A DNA stretch of 64,000 nucleotides from positions 1 through 64,000 of the forward strand of contig JAEUQU010000002.1 of assembly GCA_016789455.1 (NCBI GenBank). Reading direction: 5' to 3'. The notes beneath the pieces were generated by a model that was not told the DNA's origin, searched no databases, and saw only the letters and a list, made by a program, of their open reading frames with translations. The position numbers were made by a program, and so were the translations under genes. Position 1 is the first letter of the stretch, and every line of letters begins with the position of its first letter. Positions 7,164 to 25,484 of the stretch are shown one piece after another. Source of the stretch: Candidatus Saccharibacteria bacterium (GTDB taxonomy: Bacteria > Patescibacteriota > Saccharimonadia > Saccharimonadales > Saccharimonadaceae).

Positions 7164-7363
7164 TTATTTTAGGATAGTAGCGCATCTGGCAAAAGTACAG
7201 CTTTTCACGATTCTACAGCCCTTTGCTCAAAGTTGGACTTATATTTCATTTTTATTTAACTTTCATCAGGTACAACATACAACCAGACTAGCCAACAGCG
7301 CTGGTGTGCGGTACAAACAGAGTAAGGATATTGACAGGAAACCCCTATGTCGGCCACGGCAGT

Positions 7364-8071
7364 ATGCGACTTTTAATCATCGAAGACAACAAACAGGTAG
7401 TCATGGCCCTGCAGCGCGGGCTGCGCTCGGCCTATGCTATCGACGTGGCCTACAACGGCCAGGACGGCCTGCTGCAAGCCATGGCCACCAGCTACGACGT
7501 GATTCTGCTGGACCTGACCCTGCCGGACATGAGCGGCGAGGACATCTGCCGCACGCTGCGGGCGGAGCGCCGGACCATGCCCATCGTCATCATTACTGCC
7601 GCCACGGAGGTGGTAAAGAAGGTGACCTTGCTGGACATGGGCGCGGACGACTTTTTGACCAAGCCCTGCTCGCTCGAGGAGATCCGCGCCCGCCTGCGCG
7701 CCGTGCTGCGCCGCAGCTCCCAGCGATTGTTCAATACGCTGCTGGTGGTAGAAGACCTGGAGCTGGATACGGCCGCCCGCACCGTCACCCGCCAGGGCCA
7801 GGCCATCCAGCTGCGCCGCAAAGAGTTTGACCTGCTGGAATACCTGATGCTCAACGCCGGGCGGACGGTGACCCGGCCGATGATCATCGAGCATGTGTGG
7901 GATATGAATGAGAATCTGTGGACGAATGCGGTGGATGTGCACATTAAGCATTTGAGGGATAGGGTGGATAAGCCGTTTGGGAAGAGGCTTATTCGAACCG
8001 TGCATGGCGTGGGGTATAAAATCGAGACATCAGAAGCAAAAGAGGCCGAAGTGTCACATATATTAAATTAA
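7364..8071 (+). CDS. OmpR/PhoB-family response regulator
   Basis: 235-aa two-component regulator. The receiver domain (1-115) has the acidic pair IIEDN, the phosphoacceptor Asp50 in LLDLTLPD and the conserved Lys in FLTKPC. The C-terminal winged helix (about 130-225) has RRKEFDLLEYLMLNAGR, VHIKHLRDRV and the wing IRTVHGVGYKI. ATG 7364 is preferred over the longer upstream start because the receiver begins directly with MRLLIIEDN. The partner kinase starts 10 bases after the stop. Target genes are not identifiable, though protease genes lie immediately downstream. Confidence 0.92.
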   Translation: MRLLIIEDNKQVVMALQRGLRSAYAIDVAYNGQDGLLQAMATSYDVILLDLTLPDMSGEDICRTLRAERRTMPIVIITAATEVVKKVTLLDMGADDFLTKPCSLEEIRARLRAVLRRSSQRLFNTLLVVEDLELDTAARTVTRQGQAIQLRRKEFDLLEYLMLNAGRTVTRPMIIEHVWDMNENLWTNAVDVHIKHLRDRVDKPFGKRLIRTVHGVGYKIETSEAKEAEVSHILN

Positions 8072-8081
8072 AGTTAAAGAC

Positions 8082-9428
8082 ATGTTTCGCAAACTTTCTC
8101 CACGCCAAATACATGACTCGGATGAGTTCCGAAGACGTACCCAAGTTCTAAAGTTTATTTTGATAGGGGCAATTACACTAGGCATAATTGCTACACTGTT
8201 TGTGGTTGTCGAAAGTCTCGCGCTTGCCGAAGAATACTCCGGGCTGGCCGTTGCAGCTTGCGTGGCGCTAACGATGGTGCTGTTCGGCTGCTATATATTA
8301 AACAGCAAAGGACATGTCAAACTCGCATCTGTTGTGGTTGCATTTTTGGCTTACGGCCTAGCCACATACACCCTTGTTAAATGGGGAGTCCTAGTGCCTC
8401 AAGGAGTACTTGCCTATGGAATGTTGGTAGTAATTATTGGCGTACTGCTAGGCTCAAGAGCTTCCTTTATGGCCTCGATGCTTTGTGGTATTTCTCTTGC
8501 GAGCATGGTCTATCTTGAAGGAACAGGTCAACTCAGTCCTGACTTGACCTGGACGAATGACGAGGGGACTTATGCTGACGTGGTAATCTACATACTCTCT
8601 TTCATGATTCTTTCACTCGTAGCGTGGTTATCTAATAGAGATATCGAGCATTCATTATGGCGTGCCCTGACCTCGGAAGCATTGCTTATGGCAGAGCGGG
8701 ATAACTTAGAAGCCTCCGTTGCTCGGCGAACAAAAGAAATTGAGAGGCTTCAGGCAGAAAAAATCAGCGAACTTCAACGATTTGCGGAGTTTGGACGTAT
8801 GGGCGCATCACTTTTGCATGATCTCGCGAGTCCTTTAATGGCTGCATCTCTTGATCTTGATAGCATGGAGCAAGATAGACGATTAAACATGATAAATCAA
8901 GTCAAACGTAGCATCTATCAAATTGAAAGATACATCGAAGGCGCCAGGAGGCAGCTTGAAAGCCGAAGCGGTACGGAAGAATTTGATGTTATTGAAGAAA
9001 TTAAGCTATGTCTGCATGTGTTTGAGTCGAGGGCAAGAAACCTAAGCGTCTCACTTGATTTTCCGTACACTGAACGAGTGATGATGAAAGGCGATAGTGC
9101 ATTATTCACCAAGATAGTATCGAATTTGGTCGGTAATGCCCTCGATGCTTATGGCGATGCACGAGCGAAGCTTAGAATAATTAATATCGGAATCATTGTA
9201 GATAAACATAAAGTAACAATTGCCGTAGAAGACTATGCAGGCGGCATACCTGCACGGCACATTTCTCACATATTTGAAGCCTTTTATACGACCAAACATA
9301 ACCGTCAGGGCATGGGACTGGGGCTATCGATTGTTAAAGATATCGTGGAGACAAATTTTAAAGGTAAGATTTTCGTTAATAACTTACCTAAAGGTGGCGT
9401 AAGGTTTTCGATTGAGATTCCCCTGTAA
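8082..9428 (+). CDS. Membrane sensor histidine kinase
   Basis: 448 aa. Six predicted membrane helices (about residues 22-195) form an integral sensor without a large extracellular domain, followed by a coiled coil (about 205-235). The H box is GASLLHDLASP with His246; the ATPase part has the N box NLVGNALDAYG, DYAGGI, FEAFYTTKH and GMGLGLSIVKDI. It autophosphorylates and should pass phosphate to the regulator encoded 10 bases upstream. The membrane-embedded sensor suggests detection of a membrane-associated signal or host contact (inference). More AT-rich than its partner gene. Confidence 0.9.
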   Translation: MFRKLSPRQIHDSDEFRRRTQVLKFILIGAITLGIIATLFVVVESLALAEEYSGLAVAACVALTMVLFGCYILNSKGHVKLASVVVAFLAYGLATYTLVKWGVLVPQGVLAYGMLVVIIGVLLGSRASFMASMLCGISLASMVYLEGTGQLSPDLTWTNDEGTYADVVIYILSFMILSLVAWLSNRDIEHSLWRALTSEALLMAERDNLEASVARRTKEIERLQAEKISELQRFAEFGRMGASLLHDLASPLMAASLDLDSMEQDRRLNMINQVKRSIYQIERYIEGARRQLESRSGTEEFDVIEEIKLCLHVFESRARNLSVSLDFPYTERVMMKGDSALFTKIVSNLVGNALDAYGDARAKLRIINIGIIVDKHKVTIAVEDYAGGIPARHISHIFEAFYTTKHNRQGMGLGLSIVKDIVETNFKGKIFVNNLPKGGVRFSIEIPL

Positions 9429-9672
9429 TACATTACAAATTGCCCCAACCGGCGGCATGGTGCTATGCTTACTCTAGACACCTAATAGAGACAAACAGTG
9501 AGTCACCCCAACCCCCACCGGGCCACCGCCCATCAGCCCTGGATCCATCCAGGCCACCTGGTAGCCGCGGTGCAATCAAGTCCACGTGCCAGCGCGTACC
9601 AGCGTGCCAGTGCCGGACTGTTTTGCGTTACCGGCATGGGCGGCAACGACTCGTAGAAAGACTACCACCACC

Positions 9673-10479
9673 ATGCCCGTCTACCACCCCGGCATCCTCC
9701 AGCCCCAGCCCCCGCGGCGCATCCGCTTCCGCATGCTGCTGCCCAGTGCCATGGTGACGGTAGTGATTGCGGTGGTTGGCACGGTGCTGTTGCAGGGTGC
9801 CCTGGTTGCCTTGCCAGCCGTCACGCTGGAGGTAGAGCGGGCGGTTCCGGCCAGTGGCAACGGTGCCCGCGTAGTCAGGGATAACGCCGCCTCTGGCAGC
9901 AAAGCCCTCGGCTTTGGCCCGGTCACCAGCGGCGGCAATGACAGCGGCCAGTGCCGCACCAGCAGCAACCTGGCGGTGCAGGATTCGGTGGAGCAGGACG
10001 ATACGCCCTGGCAGATGACGGGCGACGAGCTGAACATTGTCTTTAGCACCTATGGCATCACCGAACCCTGGGCGGGGTATGTGGGCGAGGCGGCGGCCAT
10101 CTGGTCGGCCAGCCCGTGCATCAATGCCACGGCCTCTGCTGATCCTTGCGGCGCACAGCCCTGTGTGCCGGTGGGGCTGGAGGGCGGCAACCAGGGCGGC
10201 GACTTTGGCATTACCAACTGGGAGACCATGGATGGCTACCTGACCGGCTCTGATATGACCATCTTTATGGACGCCCACGAGGGTTACCCAGAGAGTGAGA
10301 AACTCTCTACCATCGCCCACGAGATGGGTCATGCCCTGGGCCTGGCGCATCGCGGTACCCAGAACATCCTGATGTCGGCCACGCCGGCCGAGAGCGGGTC
10401 TACCACCACCCAGCCGGATGCTGTTGATTTTCAAAACTTGTTGGCGCTGTATGGTACGCAGCAGACCGGGGGACAGTGA
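9673..10479 (+). CDS. Anchored matrixin-like zinc metalloprotease 1
   Basis: 268 aa. The N-terminus is basic, followed by one membrane helix (about 17-40), then an E-V-E-R-A...ASGSKALGFG segment like the end of a carbohydrate-binding-type beta sandwich, and a protease domain with STIAHEMGHALGLAHR (HExxHxxGxxH zinc motif) and the Met-turn ILMSA. ATG 9673 is chosen by alignment with the three paralogs; a longer in-frame start lacks support. Predicted to face outwards and cleave extracellular protein. The stop is four bases before a second protease gene. A 244-nt leader precedes it. Confidence 0.85.
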   Translation: MPVYHPGILQPQPPRRIRFRMLLPSAMVTVVIAVVGTVLLQGALVALPAVTLEVERAVPASGNGARVVRDNAASGSKALGFGPVTSGGNDSGQCRTSSNLAVQDSVEQDDTPWQMTGDELNIVFSTYGITEPWAGYVGEAAAIWSASPCINATASADPCGAQPCVPVGLEGGNQGGDFGITNWETMDGYLTGSDMTIFMDAHEGYPESEKLSTIAHEMGHALGLAHRGTQNILMSATPAESGSTTTQPDAVDFQNLLALYGTQQTGGQ

Positions 10480-10483
10480 GCAT

Positions 10484-11281
10484 ATGGCGCCGCAGCATTC
10501 TTCTCATACGCCTTTGCCGCATGTGCGCCGGCGCTCGTTGGTGCCGGGCGCGGCGGTCAGCATCGTGGTGGCGGCGGTGGGTATTGTGCTGCTGCAGGCG
10601 AGCCTGGCGGCCGGGCCGGTGGTGCGGGTGGAGGCGGAGGCGGGGAGGGGCGGTAATGCTCTGGCCATCGATGACGCTTCCGCCTCCGGCGGGCGGGCGA
10701 TTGTCTTTGGGGTGGCCGCCGGACCAGGCGGCAGCGATGGCCCCGGTGCGGGCAATTCCGCCGGTGGCTGCGTGGCACCCATCAACAACACTATTTTAGA
10801 CAGCCTGCCGGGCGAGGGCATCGGCTGGCAGCGCGGCAGCAGCGGCAAGGCGGACATCCCCTTTAGTACGGCCGGGCTGGACGCTGCCTGGGCCAAGCGG
10901 GTGCAGCAGGCGGTGGGCATCTGGAACGTCAGCCCCTGCCTCAACACCACCGCTACTACCGCACCGTGCAACGACGAGCGGGGCTGCGTGCGCGTCTTTG
11001 CCAGCCAGGAATGCAGCGGCGATACGCTGGGGACGGCCGATTGGAGCGTCAGTAACCAGTTCATCAGCGGCGGCCGCCTGGAGCTGTGCACCGCCGCCCA
11101 CGAGGGCTTTGGCGAGAACGAGGCCCTGGCCACGGTGGTCCACGAGATGGGACATAACCTGGGGCTCAGCCACCGGGAGACACCGGGCCTGATGATGTCG
11201 GCCACGGGGAATGGTGATACGGACCCCAAGCCGGATGAGACGGATTTGCATAATATCCTGGTTATTTACGGGAATCAGTAG
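10484..11281 (+). CDS. Anchored matrixin-like zinc metalloprotease 2
   Basis: 265-aa paralog of the preceding gene: cytoplasmic RRRS, one membrane helix (about 18-40), a VRVEAEAG...ASGGRAIVFG module, Gly/Pro-rich linker, and the catalytic TVVHEMGHNLGLSHR with Met-turn LMMSA. Several Cys pairs (SPCLN, GCVRVF, QECSGD, LELCTA) point to disulfides and an extracellular location. Tandem duplication with the upstream gene; a bidirectional hairpin terminates the operon. Confidence 0.85.
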   Translation: MAPQHSSHTPLPHVRRRSLVPGAAVSIVVAAVGIVLLQASLAAGPVVRVEAEAGRGGNALAIDDASASGGRAIVFGVAAGPGGSDGPGAGNSAGGCVAPINNTILDSLPGEGIGWQRGSSGKADIPFSTAGLDAAWAKRVQQAVGIWNVSPCLNTTATTAPCNDERGCVRVFASQECSGDTLGTADWSVSNQFISGGRLELCTAAHEGFGENEALATVVHEMGHNLGLSHRETPGLMMSATGNGDTDPKPDETDLHNILVIYGNQ

Positions 11282-19941: not shown

Positions 19942-20038
19942 AGGTGCTTCGAGTATATCAAAGACGCTGTTGTGCTGTCGCTGCCTGAAATGTTACGCTT
20001 ATGGTATATAGTCAAACAACAAAAAAGGTCACTGGCAT

Positions 20039-20938
20039 ATGTCATCGCTCCCTGGCTACCACTTCCACTCCACCAAACGCACGGCGGTGCCTGGCGCCTT
20101 GGTGGCGGCGGTCATCGGGCTGACGGGTATCGTGCTGCTGGGCGGTGTCTTTGCCGCCGGGCGGGTGGTGGCGTTTGAGGCAGAGGATGCTGAGGGTGTA
20201 GCGACCGGTACGGCCGGTGCGCATGCCCTGCAGGATGCGGCTGCCTCAAACAGTAAAGCTCTCCGTTTCGGCCTTGCCCCAGTGACTGATGATGGCGGGG
20301 ATGATGCTGGCGGCGGTGACGACCCGACCGACCCGACCGATCCGGGTGACGACGGCGGTGTCATTACCGACCCGGGCGACGACGGCACTACTGCTGAGTG
20401 TGCCGCTCCGGCCGGCGCAGCCATGCAGGACACGGAGGGCGACACGTACTACTGGGAAATCACCGGCGACCGGCTGGATATGGTCCTGAGTATCAAGGAT
20501 CTGCCGGAGCCATGGGCCGGGCATATCAAGAAGTATGCCGAAGTGTGGTCGGCCGGGCCGTGCGTCAAGATAAAGGTTATCGCCGAAGCCTGCGGCGATA
20601 CGCAGCCGTGCCTGCCAGTCGTCATCGATAATGCCAATCCAGGCATCGGCGGTGTTGACCGTGACACTGAGGGCAGGGTCTTTAAACGGGCGCAGATTGC
20701 GCTTAACGAGACCGCGCATGCGGCAGCGGCAGACGCCGACGGGGAGCGGAAGATTACAGCCGGCCATGCCATCGGCCGCGCGCTTGGCCTGGGATTGCGC
20801 ACGACGCCGGAGATACTGATGTCTTCAGTGCGGCCGCTCGTCGGAGGTAGTACCGCCCCGGATTCAGTTGATTTCGAAAACTTAAAAGTGCTGTATGGCT
20901 CGCAGGTAAGCGGCATGGCTGGAGGGAGCAGTAACTAG
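20039..20938 (+). CDS. Catalytically degenerate matrixin-like protein (pseudoprotease)
   Basis: 299 aa. Same layout as the three other protease paralogs: basic N-terminus, membrane helix (about 17-40), EAEDAEG...ASNSKALRFGL module, Asp/Gly/Pro linker (DPTDPTDPGDDGG), C-terminal domain. At the zinc site it reads TAGHAIGRALGLGLR where its neighbour has TVVHEMGHTLGLKHR: the first His is kept, the catalytic Glu is Ala, the second and third His are Arg and Leu. The Met-turn ILMSS is kept. It is intact, so a regulatory, scaffold or binding role is more likely than decay. The next gene starts at the very next base. Confidence 0.85.
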   Translation: MSSLPGYHFHSTKRTAVPGALVAAVIGLTGIVLLGGVFAAGRVVAFEAEDAEGVATGTAGAHALQDAAASNSKALRFGLAPVTDDGGDDAGGGDDPTDPTDPGDDGGVITDPGDDGTTAECAAPAGAAMQDTEGDTYYWEITGDRLDMVLSIKDLPEPWAGHIKKYAEVWSAGPCVKIKVIAEACGDTQPCLPVVIDNANPGIGGVDRDTEGRVFKRAQIALNETAHAAAADADGERKITAGHAIGRALGLGLRTTPEILMSSVRPLVGGSTAPDSVDFENLKVLYGSQVSGMAGGSSN

Positions 20939-21847
20939 ATGGCACAACTACCTGGCTATCATTTCAATAAGCGCAAGAACACTGTGGTGCCGGGCGCCAT
21001 CGTGGCGACTATCGTCGGCGTGACGGGTATCGTGCTGCTGGGCGGCGTCTTTGCGGCCGGACCGGTGGTGGCCTATGAACCGGAGGATGCGTTTGACGGC
21101 GCACCGGGCACCAACGGCCTGCATGTGGTAGAAGACACCGGCGCATCCAATAGCAAGGCGCTGCGCTTTGGTCTGCTGCCGGCAACTGATGACGGCACGA
21201 ACGAACCCGACCCGGATCCTGATCCAACCCCCGACCCTGATCCAGTAGAACCCGACCCGGAACCAGATCCCAAGCCAGACCCGGATCCCACCCCGACCCC
21301 CGAGCCGAAGCCTTGTACCATGCCGCCCGAAGGCGTCGTGCTTGATTCCGAACCAGGAGAGCGCCCGTGGCGCATGAACGGTGCCGTCTTTACGCCCACC
21401 TTCAGCATCGCCGGCATGAGTGCGGAATGGGGCAACCATGTCAAGCGGGCTGCCGCCGAGTGGTCGCGCAGCTACTGCATCGACGCTTCGGTCATCACCA
21501 CGGCCTGTACTGCCGATATCTATGCCTGCATTCCGGTGAGTGAGGCCAAGCTGGCCCCGAACGGTAACGTCCCGACGCTTGGCCAGGCGCCATACACCAA
21601 GGATAATGAAGGGTACACCATCAAAGCCTCGCTGCAGCTGGACCCTGCCGCCCACGCGGGCTATCCGGCCACCGAGGCGCTCTCGACCGTGGTGCACGAG
21701 ATGGGGCATACCCTGGGCCTGAAGCACCGGCTGACGGCCGGCCTGATGCTTTCGGCCAATGCCAAGGCCGGCGGCACGCCGCAACTTCCGGACAATACTG
21801 ATTTTTATAACATCGCAGTGATTTACGGTCGGCAGCTAAGCCAGTAG
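20939..21847 (+). CDS. Anchored matrixin-like zinc metalloprotease 3
   Basis: 302 aa, partner of the degenerate gene directly upstream (no spacer). Membrane helix at about 18-40, YEPEDAF...ASNSKALRFGL module, a long Asp-Pro repeat linker (PDPDPTPDPDPVEPDPEP type, about residues 98-126), then a protease domain with STVVHEMGHTLGLKHR and Met-turn LMLSA. Cysteines RSYCID, TTACTAD and YACIP suggest disulfides outside the cell. The linker would hold the protease away from the membrane or wall. Confidence 0.87.
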   Translation: MAQLPGYHFNKRKNTVVPGAIVATIVGVTGIVLLGGVFAAGPVVAYEPEDAFDGAPGTNGLHVVEDTGASNSKALRFGLLPATDDGTNEPDPDPDPTPDPDPVEPDPEPDPKPDPDPTPTPEPKPCTMPPEGVVLDSEPGERPWRMNGAVFTPTFSIAGMSAEWGNHVKRAAAEWSRSYCIDASVITTACTADIYACIPVSEAKLAPNGNVPTLGQAPYTKDNEGYTIKASLQLDPAAHAGYPATEALSTVVHEMGHTLGLKHRLTAGLMLSANAKAGGTPQLPDNTDFYNIAVIYGRQLSQ

Positions 21848-22628: not shown

Positions 22629-22997
22629 TTATTCAGGATGGTTAAGCGCAATAATGTAGCCCTCATGAATAATATTGCCGTTTACTTTTGCATCCTCAAG
22701 TATATGTTGGCCCGCTTTGAATTGACGCAGCATTAATTTGATGAAATGCTGGTTCTTATCGTATATAACAACTCGAGCTATATCATCCCTTTCGGAAGGT
22801 TCTAGTTCATCTTGAAGAATTTTAATCAAACTACGGAATACTTCCTTGTTGTTTTCCCCAGTAATCCAATCGGCACTAATAAGGATAGACCATTTGTCTA
22901 CCAACTCATCCATCTTGAGTACTGCAAAAAGAATGACAGGTCGGTCTTCATTTATCTCTATGAACTTCGCAAGAACTCTAGCGTAGCTCTCTGACAT
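22629..22997 (-). CDS. Putative partner of the HEPN-like protein
   Basis: 122 aa from ATG 22997 (MSESYARVL); an ATG two codons upstream is possible. AT-rich. Its pattern of a strand DKWSILISADWI, helix EVFRSLIKILQDEL, strand IARVVIYD and end GNIIHEGYIIA resembles reduced nucleotidyltransferase (MNT)-like proteins, though no GSxxxGDxD motif is present. The start codon overlaps the stop of the HEPN-like gene (TAATG), so the two are coupled, as in HEPN/MNT toxin-antitoxin pairs. Function is an inference from layout. Confidence 0.6.
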   Translation of the reverse strand: MSESYARVLAKFIEINEDRPVILFAVLKMDELVDKWSILISADWITGENNKEVFRSLIKILQDELEPSERDDIARVVIYDKNQHFIKLMLRQFKAGQHILEDAKVNGNIIHEGYIIALNHPE

Positions 22998-23464
22998 TAC
23001 CATCTTTTTAGCCTCGTCATTGTTTTTAGTATACTATCATCATCTGCATACAGAGCATCGTACAGCGCTTTTGCGTTAGCCTCTTGAAAGTTTGCCTGCA
23101 TTCGTGGATCGTAACGCATTGCTGTGTAATCCTTATTTCCAAAAATGAGCGGAGCGGTAAAAATAGACCAGTTTTGGAAAGCATTAGCGTTTATCATCGG
23201 CTTGCGCACGCTAAATACATCCGTCATTCCACTGATTTTTAGCAGACGGTCAAATTTGTGCGACTTAAAATATTTATCATCGTCATGATTTGCTTCAGGA
23301 TAAGTCTCGAAACGCAGTGCTTTACAGGCTGCGGCTTTCAAAGCCAGCTCAAGTGCCATGGCCATCACATAGACCGCCATCTCCCAGTCTTTCATGTCAA
23401 TTAGTTTCTTAGCAATCACAACCCGAGAGCGGGCGATTGCTTTTAAATCAATCCCTGATGCCAT
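22997..23464 (-). CDS. HEPN-domain-like protein
   Basis: 155 aa from ATG 23464. The N-terminal half has two helices (IARSRVVIAKKLIDMKDWEM, then AVYVMAMALELALKAAACKA) in the typical HEPN pattern A..A..L....W..A...A..A.E.ALKA. The central SHKFDRLLKISG fits the H-x-L-x-x-L helix of HEPN families. The usual RxxxxH ribonuclease motif is not evident. AT-rich and coupled to the gene downstream. Possible toxin-antitoxin or nucleotide-linked regulatory pair. Confidence 0.65.
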   Translation of the reverse strand: MASGIDLKAIARSRVVIAKKLIDMKDWEMAVYVMAMALELALKAAACKALRFETYPEANHDDDKYFKSHKFDRLLKISGMTDVFSVRKPMINANAFQNWSIFTAPLIFGNKDYTAMRYDPRMQANFQEANAKALYDALYADDDSILKTMTRLKRW

Positions 23465-23550
23465 TATGTTTACGATTATAACATAATATCCATAACTTAT
23501 CAAACGCAATTTATAAAAAGGGCTATTATAAGCCCTTTGCATACAAAACC

Positions 23551-23628
23551 TGGGGCGAATGATGGGGCTCGAACCCACGGCCTCCGGAGCCACAATCCAG
23601 CGCTCTAACCTACTGAGCTACATCCGCC
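23551..23628 (-). tRNA. tRNA-His (GTG)
   Basis: Cloverleaf with acceptor GCGGATG/CATTCGC, D-stem GCTC, anticodon loop ATTGTGG, T-arm GTGGGTTCGAGCCCCAT. An additional G at position -1 faces C73, the histidine identity pair. CCA is encoded. Confidence 0.97.
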
Positions 23629-23692: not shown

Positions 23693-24718
23693 CTAGCCGC
23701 CGATGCCCGAGAAGCTGTCTACCTGCAGCTCCGGGGCGTTGGTGGCGCCGGTGCTGCTGAAGGCCCGGATGCCGACCCGGCCGCCGCTCTGGAAGACGGT
23801 GTTGGTGAGGGAGAGTGTCGGGCTGCTGGGTTCGGCGGTGCCGTCCTGCCATGCATACATGCTGAGAGTGGTGCCGTCGTAGGTGCCGCGGATCCACCAG
23901 CGCTGGCCAGGGGCAAAACTTGAGCCTACGGTGATGTTGCTGCCCAGGTTGGTCTCAGTGCCGGCCTCGTTGATGGTGATGGCTGCCGTTACGGCGCCGG
24001 TGGTGCCGAATGTCAGGCGGAAGCGGTAGTGGTTGTTGCTGTCGGTCAGGCTGCCGACCAAGGCGGCAGAATTGGCGGCGCCGGCCGGCATGGTGCTGAG
24101 GGTGAGCCGCGTACGGACGTCGTAGGTAGCAAATGTCTGGCTGAGCCTGGTGTAGCGCGAGTTGTTGGCGGTCGGCATGGCGATACGGCCAGTGGTGGAT
24201 GACACCGAATAGTCGGCTACGGAACCGTTGGCGGTCGACCAGGTGCCACCGCCGGAGGCTGTGCCCCAGCCGGAGCTGACGGTGCGAGCAAAGTCGTCGC
24301 TGATGGTGGTGGAGGCGGTACCGCCAGTGCCATGGCCGGGGCAGGGGCCGCTGACGGGTGAGCGGTTCTGGCTGGTGACCTTGAAGGTCGGGGTGCCGTT
24401 GTTGGCGGTCAGGCAGTAGGTGTCGGTGGCGGCGTTGTAGGCATATTGATAACTGGTATTGGGACTAGTGGGCAGGCTCGGCATGACGCTGGGGTAGGTG
24501 CCGGTGTCGGCCTTGGTCTGTTCCAGCTGCTTGGCTGACGACTTGAGGTCGGACTGGGCCGTGGCGCTCCGCGCCTGGTCCTGCGAGCGGCTGTAGGCAC
24601 CGATGGCCAGTACTGCCAGGATGCCGATGATGACAATGACGATGAGCAGCTCAACGATAGTGAAGCCTGTACTATGCAGCCGTGAGCCGCCATGGGTGCG
24701 TGCGATGGTGCGTTCCAT
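23693..24718 (-). CDS. Type IV pilin-like protein with lectin-like C-terminal domain
   Basis: 341 aa from ATG 24718. Class III-type pilin signal: short basic leader then TG^FTIVELLIVIVIIGILAVL, followed by the pilin helix and a short globular part (TSYQYAYNAATDTYCLTANN). From about residue 140 a second domain starts (ISDDFARTVSSGWGTASGGG, VGSLTDSNNHYRFRLT, WWIRGTYDGTTLSMYAW), typical of concanavalin/LamG-like jelly rolls. Predicted surface adhesin or pseudopilin. TTGTGG-17-TATAGT ends ten bases before the ATG, so the mRNA is probably leaderless. Divergent from the sortase. Confidence 0.85.
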   Translation of the reverse strand: MERTIARTHGGSRLHSTGFTIVELLIVIVIIGILAVLAIGAYSRSQDQARSATAQSDLKSSAKQLEQTKADTGTYPSVMPSLPTSPNTSYQYAYNAATDTYCLTANNGTPTFKVTSQNRSPVSGPCPGHGTGGTASTTISDDFARTVSSGWGTASGGGTWSTANGSVADYSVSSTTGRIAMPTANNSRYTRLSQTFATYDVRTRLTLSTMPAGAANSAALVGSLTDSNNHYRFRLTFGTTGAVTAAITINEAGTETNLGSNITVGSSFAPGQRWWIRGTYDGTTLSMYAWQDGTAEPSSPTLSLTNTVFQSGGRVGIRAFSSTGATNAPELQVDSFSGIGG

Positions 24719-24821
24719 AGTTGTTTTTACTATAGTAAATCCGTCGGTAAACCACAAGCAGGATGGTGGGGCGGGTTTTGATATAGGCGTGAGCCATATA
24801 TACTATGAACTGCAATTCTTT

Positions 24822-25484
24822 ATGAAATACCACTACCAAAAAGGGGCGTCCGGAAAGAGCAAAAGCGGCTCCCGCCTCAAAAATGCCCTCTGGATCATCG
24901 TACCCTGCCTGACGGCGGGTATCGGTATCTATATTTTAATTACTGCCTTCAGCCCGTCTTTCATCGTCGTGCCGTTCTCTGACGAGCAGGCCAGGGTGGA
25001 GGAGCGGCTTAACAGCAAGCCGGGCATCTTTGGCAACCGGCTGTATATACCGCAGATCAACGTTGACGTGGCTATCGTGGAGGGTAATGACGAGTCGGTG
25101 CTCGATAGAGGCGCCTGGCATCGCCAGCCCCAGAACGGCAACCCCGAAAAGGGCGGCAATTTCGTGCTGAGCGCCCATCGTTTCCTGATGGGCTGGACGC
25201 CGCAGGAGACGCGGGCGAAATCGCCGTTTTATAACATCGGGCGGTTGAAGGTGGGCGATCAGTTATTCGTGGATTATAAAGGGTCGCGCTATGCGTATAA
25301 GATTACTAGAAAATATGAGGTGAAGCCGACGGCGGTCGAGATCGAGGCGAAGTCTGAGAAGGCAAAATTGACGCTGTATTCATGTACGCTGGAAGGCGCT
25401 GCTGACGGCCGCGATGTCATTGAGGCTGAGCCGCTGGGCAAGGTGGATAAAGTGCAGGCCACCGAACCAGGACGCTTGCAATAA
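24822..25484 (+). CDS. Sortase (class D/E-like)
   Basis: 220 aa. Signal anchor (about 21-44), then a sortase barrel with GNRLYIPQINVDVAIVEGND, catalytic His in VLSAHRFLMGW, catalytic Cys in TLYSCTLEG and the Arg in ADGRDV. It would cleave a C-terminal sorting motif and attach proteins to the wall or to each other. ATG 24822 is the first Met before the anchor; longer in-frame starts run into the divergent pilin gene. Divergently placed next to the pilin-lectin gene; no LPxTG-like substrate is seen here. Confidence 0.9.
   Translation: MKYHYQKGASGKSKSGSRLKNALWIIVPCLTAGIGIYILITAFSPSFIVVPFSDEQARVEERLNSKPGIFGNRLYIPQINVDVAIVEGNDESVLDRGAWHRQPQNGNPEKGGNFVLSAHRFLMGWTPQETRAKSPFYNIGRLKVGDQLFVDYKGSRYAYKITRKYEVKPTAVEIEAKSEKAKLTLYSCTLEGAADGRDVIEAEPLGKVDKVQATEPGRLQ

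Follow-up and report, generated by a model that had tools for sequence, protein, structure and literature searches.

The 64,000-nucleotide window analysed here, part of a Candidatus Saccharibacteria genome of 1.44 Mb in two contigs, carries two abutting genes of the matrixin family, one of which has lost three of the residues that define the zinc-binding active site. Below, PSE denotes the gene of this pseudoprotease and ACT the adjacent gene for a matrixin with an intact motif (Table 1). On balance, PSE probably encodes a lineage-specific functional pseudoprotease, which is membrane-anchored, has a matrixin fold, is co-expressed with its intact paralogue, and acts without catalysis.

Table 1. 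Positions of the two genes, their motifs, and related features in the window
Feature	Position	Strand	Remark
Response regulator 5' of the other matrixin pair	7304..8071	+	gene context
Sensor histidine kinase immediately 5' of the other matrixin pair	8082..9428	+	homologue adjoins the congener's single matrixin
Paralogue W9586, intact motif, 5' member of the other tandem pair	9673..10479	+	ORF may start at 9586
Paralogue W10484, intact motif, 3' member of the other tandem pair	10484..11281	+	alignment
Promoter-like site 5' of PSE	19985..20012	+	consensus match only
PSE, 299 aa	20039..20938	+	membrane anchor at the N-terminus, then a linker rich in Asp and Gly and an inactivated matrixin-fold domain
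PSE anchor module	20039..20272	+	transmembrane segment, then EAEDA...ASNSKALRFG; 67% identical to ACT anchor
Degenerate zinc motif of PSE, HAIGRALGLGL	20765..20797	+	alignment with homologues
Met-turn Met of PSE, kept (ILMS)	20819..20821	+	alignment
ACT, 302 aa, intact-motif matrixin	20939..21847	+	ATG directly 3' of PSE TAG
ACT anchor module	20939..21172	+	sequence comparison with PSE anchor
Intact zinc motif of ACT, HEMGHTLGLKH	21695..21727	+	alignment with homologues
Leu in place of the Met-turn Met in ACT (GLMLS)	21749..21751	+	alignment

The aligned zinc-motif site reads ITAGHAIGRALGLGLRTTPEILMSS in PSE and STVVHEMGHTLGLKHRLTAGLMLSA in ACT. In PSE the general base Glu is replaced by Ala, the second His by Arg, and the third His by Leu, and only the first His is kept; the alignment therefore confirms the claim of an earlier note on this DNA that the catalytic Glu and two zinc-binding His are missing. 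The three replaced residues are invariant in 13 of 13 other aligned homologues, and HExxHxxGxxH, which is absent from PSE, is present in full in ACT and the other homologues. A protein with this single remaining ligand would not be expected to bind a catalytic zinc or to carry out metzincin-type hydrolysis. The Met-turn column contains Met in PSE and in every other aligned homologue with the exception of ACT, which departs with a Leu in spite of its intact motif. A compensating frameshift within the PSE motif was ruled out, because the changes are substitutions only. It is also extremely improbable that the gene is in fact intact and that the motif results from an error of sequencing or assembly: only a single genome is at hand, but the three clean substitutions lie in frame in three codons, no indel is present, and the surrounding codons also differ from every paralogue.

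Both genes are encoded on the same strand with zero-length spacing, the TAG stop codon of PSE ending at 20938 and the ATG of ACT beginning at 20939. The start of PSE is thus 900 bases upstream of that of ACT, and not one base before it, as had been stated. PSE is indeed full length, and its open reading frame contains neither a frameshift nor an internal stop. Consensus matching revealed no further promoter-like site on the plus strand between the site upstream of PSE and the ACT start, and this, together with the zero-length spacing, suggests that the expression of the two genes is coordinated. The anchors of PSE and ACT are 67% identical, in contrast to only 30% identity of the catalytic domains, and therefore the description of the two proteins as sisters is clearly appropriate for the anchor, but not for the catalytic domain. 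The dN/dS value for the anchors is 0.17, which is a rough estimate since dS is high (1.4). PSE had been said to keep the anchor, the linker, and the Met-turn of its paralogues; this is true for the anchor and the Met, but the linker is not closely shared, being Asp/Gly-rich in PSE and Pro/Asp-rich in ACT.

The same anchor type, a transmembrane segment followed by EAEDx...ASxSKALxFG, is found at the N-terminus of numerous surface proteins of this genome that are otherwise unrelated, e.g., a GH6 protein, an alginate lyase, pectate-lyase-like beta helices, an M28 peptidase, and others. The shared N-terminal anchor seems to be a module that serves surface display in general, and it may be a remnant that resembles a carbohydrate-binding module (CBM-like).

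Several observations suggest that PSE has been under constraint outside the motif. Its in-frame coding log-odds are 0.191, compared to -0.23 and -0.31 for the other sense frames and to 0.02-0.42 for the genes of the window. Among 18 invariant columns that were defined on the 13 other homologues (4 catalytic, 14 other), PSE has lost four, namely, three of the four catalytic columns and one of the 14 others (one Ser). This concentration of the losses on catalytic columns has a one-sided Fisher p of 0.019, which becomes 0.05-0.12 with a laxer choice of columns. All aligned sequences, PSE included, share four cysteines, two Trp, and several Asp, Asn, and Tyr in the domain. In a leave-one-out profile from which the motif columns had been removed PSE scored 98.4 bits, ACT 96.0 bits, and the intact copy C2:704k 99.2 bits. 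Therefore, PSE shows no greater decay than these intact copies once the motif is disregarded, and its damage does not extend beyond the motif. An intact frame combined with a loss confined to catalytic residues, as seen in PSE, is one mark of a functional pseudoenzyme; for the other mark, orthologues that keep the same changes at a dN/dS below 1, no instance was found in the genomes searched.

Decay after redundancy is a serious rival, albeit an unlikely one. In that case a redundant paralogue would have lost catalysis only lately, on the way to a pseudogene, and the other conserved residues would have been inherited from its active past. The presence of six matrixin copies suggests redundancy, no orthologue with the same substitutions was found, the matrixin of the congener is intact, and the codon adaptation of PSE is slightly lower than that of its sisters (0.644 versus 0.70). 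The similar profile fit of PSE and ACT outside the motif argues against decay, and so does a neutral simulation, which started from an intact paralogue and scored the loss of at least three catalytic columns and of at most one of the 14 others without a stop codon. This joint pattern occurred in at most about 0.1% of the runs at any divergence tried, and thus the loss of three of four catalytic versus one of 14 other columns is rare under neutral drift overall. When divergences up to 0.3 were given equal weight, about 0.6% of the runs with at least three catalytic losses kept the rest without a stop. However, the same conditioned share was 20-33% at divergences of 0.02-0.05, and therefore a very recent loss is compatible with the simulation. 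The dN/dS values between the catalytic domains of the paralogues are uninformative, because dS is saturated. As no orthologue of PSE was found, constraint after the loss of catalysis is not cleanly separable from constraint before it.

The predicted structures are in agreement with a matrixin fold of both proteins. AlphaFold2 yielded a metzincin fold for PSE (pLDDT 88.5, pTM 0.87) and a model of similar quality for ACT (pLDDT 86.9, pTM 0.85). The underlying alignment comprised nine sequences from the window and the loci, for PSE eight intact homologues, and hence the PSE model leans to the fold and indicates compatibility with it, but is no proof of folding. The PSE model matched snapalysin with a Z score of 13.1 and karilysin with 12.8, the ACT model with 12.2 and 11.8, respectively, and human MMPs were tied with or just below these two enzymes for both models. 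For PSE, Foldseek gave an E value of 7.4e-07 to MMP-12, and the VIA Z scores to MMPs, karilysin, and snapalysin were 11.5-13. The models of PSE and ACT thus share their fold with the matrixins (PF00413, M10), karilysin, and snapalysin, whereas an N-terminal membrane anchor and four conserved Cys set the family described here apart. HExxHxxGxxH is found in ACT and the other paralogues, which also match PF00413, the match of ACT to Pfam Peptidase_M10 (E 9.2e-5, 22.8 bits) being just under the cut-off of 24 and reaching 24.1 bits in the genome search. In contrast, PSE lacks the Glu and two His and has no match to PF00413 at an E value of 1, nor to any other Pfam or NCBIfam profile.

The genome contains six matrixin copies, i.e., PSE, ACT, the tandem pair at 9673-10479 and 10484-11281, and the copies C2:588k and C2:704k. 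The motif is intact in five of the six, PSE being the exception. The best paralogue match of PSE has an E value of 2.5e-58. Based on the catalytic domains, the nearest copy to PSE is W9586 (38% identity), and the nearest to ACT is W10484 (40%). The one congener that was compared has a single matrixin with an intact motif, and a genome from another family of the order has two, both intact. Five loci of Georgenia, Arthrobacter, and Pseudonocardia (L057-L061) encode the same four-Cys matrixin domain with 27-37% identity to the copies in the window; they differ by their N-terminal regions, all of their motifs are intact, and a pseudo copy is absent from the loci read. A query of public genomes with the single domain retrieved only actinobacterial and more distant matches. 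Matches outside the genus in one search turned out to be matches to the Pro-Asp linker and not matrixins.

An orthologue of PSE was not found in the genus (two species sampled), in two largely overlapping draws from the family (394 and 393 genomes), or in draws from the order and the class (393 genomes each). A scan of viral contigs revealed no relative, and a plasmid scan gave one weak match, in Paenarthrobacter. The earlier note had described a conserved pair of pseudoenzyme and enzyme. A pair it is, with a pseudoprotease by motif, signs of constraint at the level of the fold, and an abutting paralogue with an intact motif, but its conservation is unsupported: no orthologue of PSE turned up in the genus, family, order, and class samples, and the pair was found in this genome only. 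Because the genus is thinly sampled, the absence elsewhere says little about the age of the pair.

The other tandem pair sheds some light on the origin of PSE. The order response regulator, histidine kinase, matrixin is found in the window (7304-11281, with two matrixins) as well as in the congener (L043:988-3862, with one), and by gene order this row is a conserved two-component-matrixin cluster. The shared order identifies the copy at 9673 as the positional counterpart of the congener's matrixin. An intact motif in orthologues of close relatives had been named as a mark of simple decay; the congener's matrixin is indeed intact, but it corresponds to the 9673 copy and not to PSE, so that its motif leaves simple decay neither proven nor disproven. 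With the motif intact both in the congener's matrixin and in the 9673 counterpart, its loss in PSE is a derived, lineage-specific trait. The kinase gene upstream of PSE and ACT has no match in the congener, and the corresponding empty site was not located there.

In phylogenetic trees the anchors of PSE and ACT group together (96/92), and the catalytic domain of ACT groups with that of W10484 (89/91). The grouping of the PSE catalytic domain with W9586 is weakly supported (51/0), although W9586 is nearest by identity, and AU tests reject neither a PSE and ACT group (p 0.12) nor a W9586 and W10484 group (p 0.15). The branch of PSE is among the longest (3.22), but two intact members have similar branches (2.97 and 3.39). 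A simple recent tandem duplication that gave rise to PSE and ACT is unsupported in view of catalytic domains that are so much less similar than the anchors. A co-linear duplication of two genes, pairing PSE with W9586 and ACT with W10484, is suggested by the ACT and W10484 group and by the identities, but the PSE and W9586 pairing has little tree support, and both AU alternatives stand unrejected. An exchange or homogenisation of the anchors after an older duplication is plausible, and a slower evolution of the anchor would give the same contrast between anchor and domain.

Within the preferred explanation, a functional pseudoprotease, a family of cell-surface matrixins would have expanded in this lineage, to six copies here compared to one in the congener, and would have given rise to PSE. 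In PSE, catalysis would then have gone with the replacement of the general base and of two zinc ligands, whereas the fold of the domain would have stayed constrained. PSE would be co-translated with ACT, and a common type of anchor would hold both proteins on the surface of the same cell. Most likely, PSE would bind the substrate, surface partners, or ACT itself, and its binding would recruit, present, or titrate what ACT cuts.

We infer a partnership of PSE and ACT, and the regulatory or substrate-presenting role put forward in the earlier note would have precedents in M16B operons and pseudo-ADAMs. The catalytic domains of snapalysin, karilysin, and MMPs are known to be self-sufficient, which argues against an obligate PSE/ACT heterodimer with an inactive subunit that would shape the substrate cleft. 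This narrower form of the preferred explanation is quite improbable, also because both motifs are intact in the other tandem pair. In its favor are the abutting genes, the matched anchors with 67% identity, the unusual Met-turn of ACT, and the two-gene operons of prokaryotic M16B peptidases, which code for an active and an inactive subunit (PMC11266112). M16B operons and the mitochondrial processing peptidase thus combine inactive and active homologous metallopeptidase subunits, as PSE and ACT might do, but M16B has an unrelated fold and motif (HxxEH), and the heterodimer was shown there, while that of PSE and ACT is hypothetical. That PSE serves, more broadly, the adjacent ACT as a dedicated regulator or subunit, which would constitute a heteromeric bacterial M10 system in a bacterium with a small genome, is rather improbable.

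A second narrower form is possible, though somewhat unlikely, namely, that PSE binds at the surface independently of ACT, as an adhesin, a decoy, or a capture module, and lies next to ACT only due to tandem duplication. Many surface domains of this genome that are otherwise unrelated share its anchor type, and pseudopeptidase ADAMs act by protein-protein binding (PMC11266112); however, coordinated expression is suggested by the zero-length spacing and by the lack of a promoter-like site for ACT alone. These ADAMs (ADAM2, 11, 22, 23; M12 metzincins) are membrane-anchored and have lost the zinc ligands and the general base, but have kept the Met-turn (PMC11266112), as has the membrane-anchored metzincin-fold domain of PSE. 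Unlike PSE, they are eukaryotic and multidomain, belong to another metzincin subfamily, and have no adjacent active gene in an operon.

Inactive metzincins such as these ADAMs are already well described in animals. The literature search, mostly of freely accessible papers, retrieved no bacterial matrixin pseudoprotease and no report linking Saccharibacteria with matrixins. A single-genome case limits the claim, and the find is a modest one. If PSE assists or restrains its neighbour, the pair would serve as a compact, genetically simple model of how a pseudoprotease exerts control on the surface of a bacterial cell.

Two further features of the window lie downstream of ACT. At 22629-23593 on the minus strand there is an overlapping gene pair, which is possibly a two-gene module and whose larger product matches HEPN weakly (E 0.099). 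At 23693-25484 a pilin-like gene with an N-methylation motif on the minus strand overlaps the 5' end of an ORF with a sortase domain on the plus strand.
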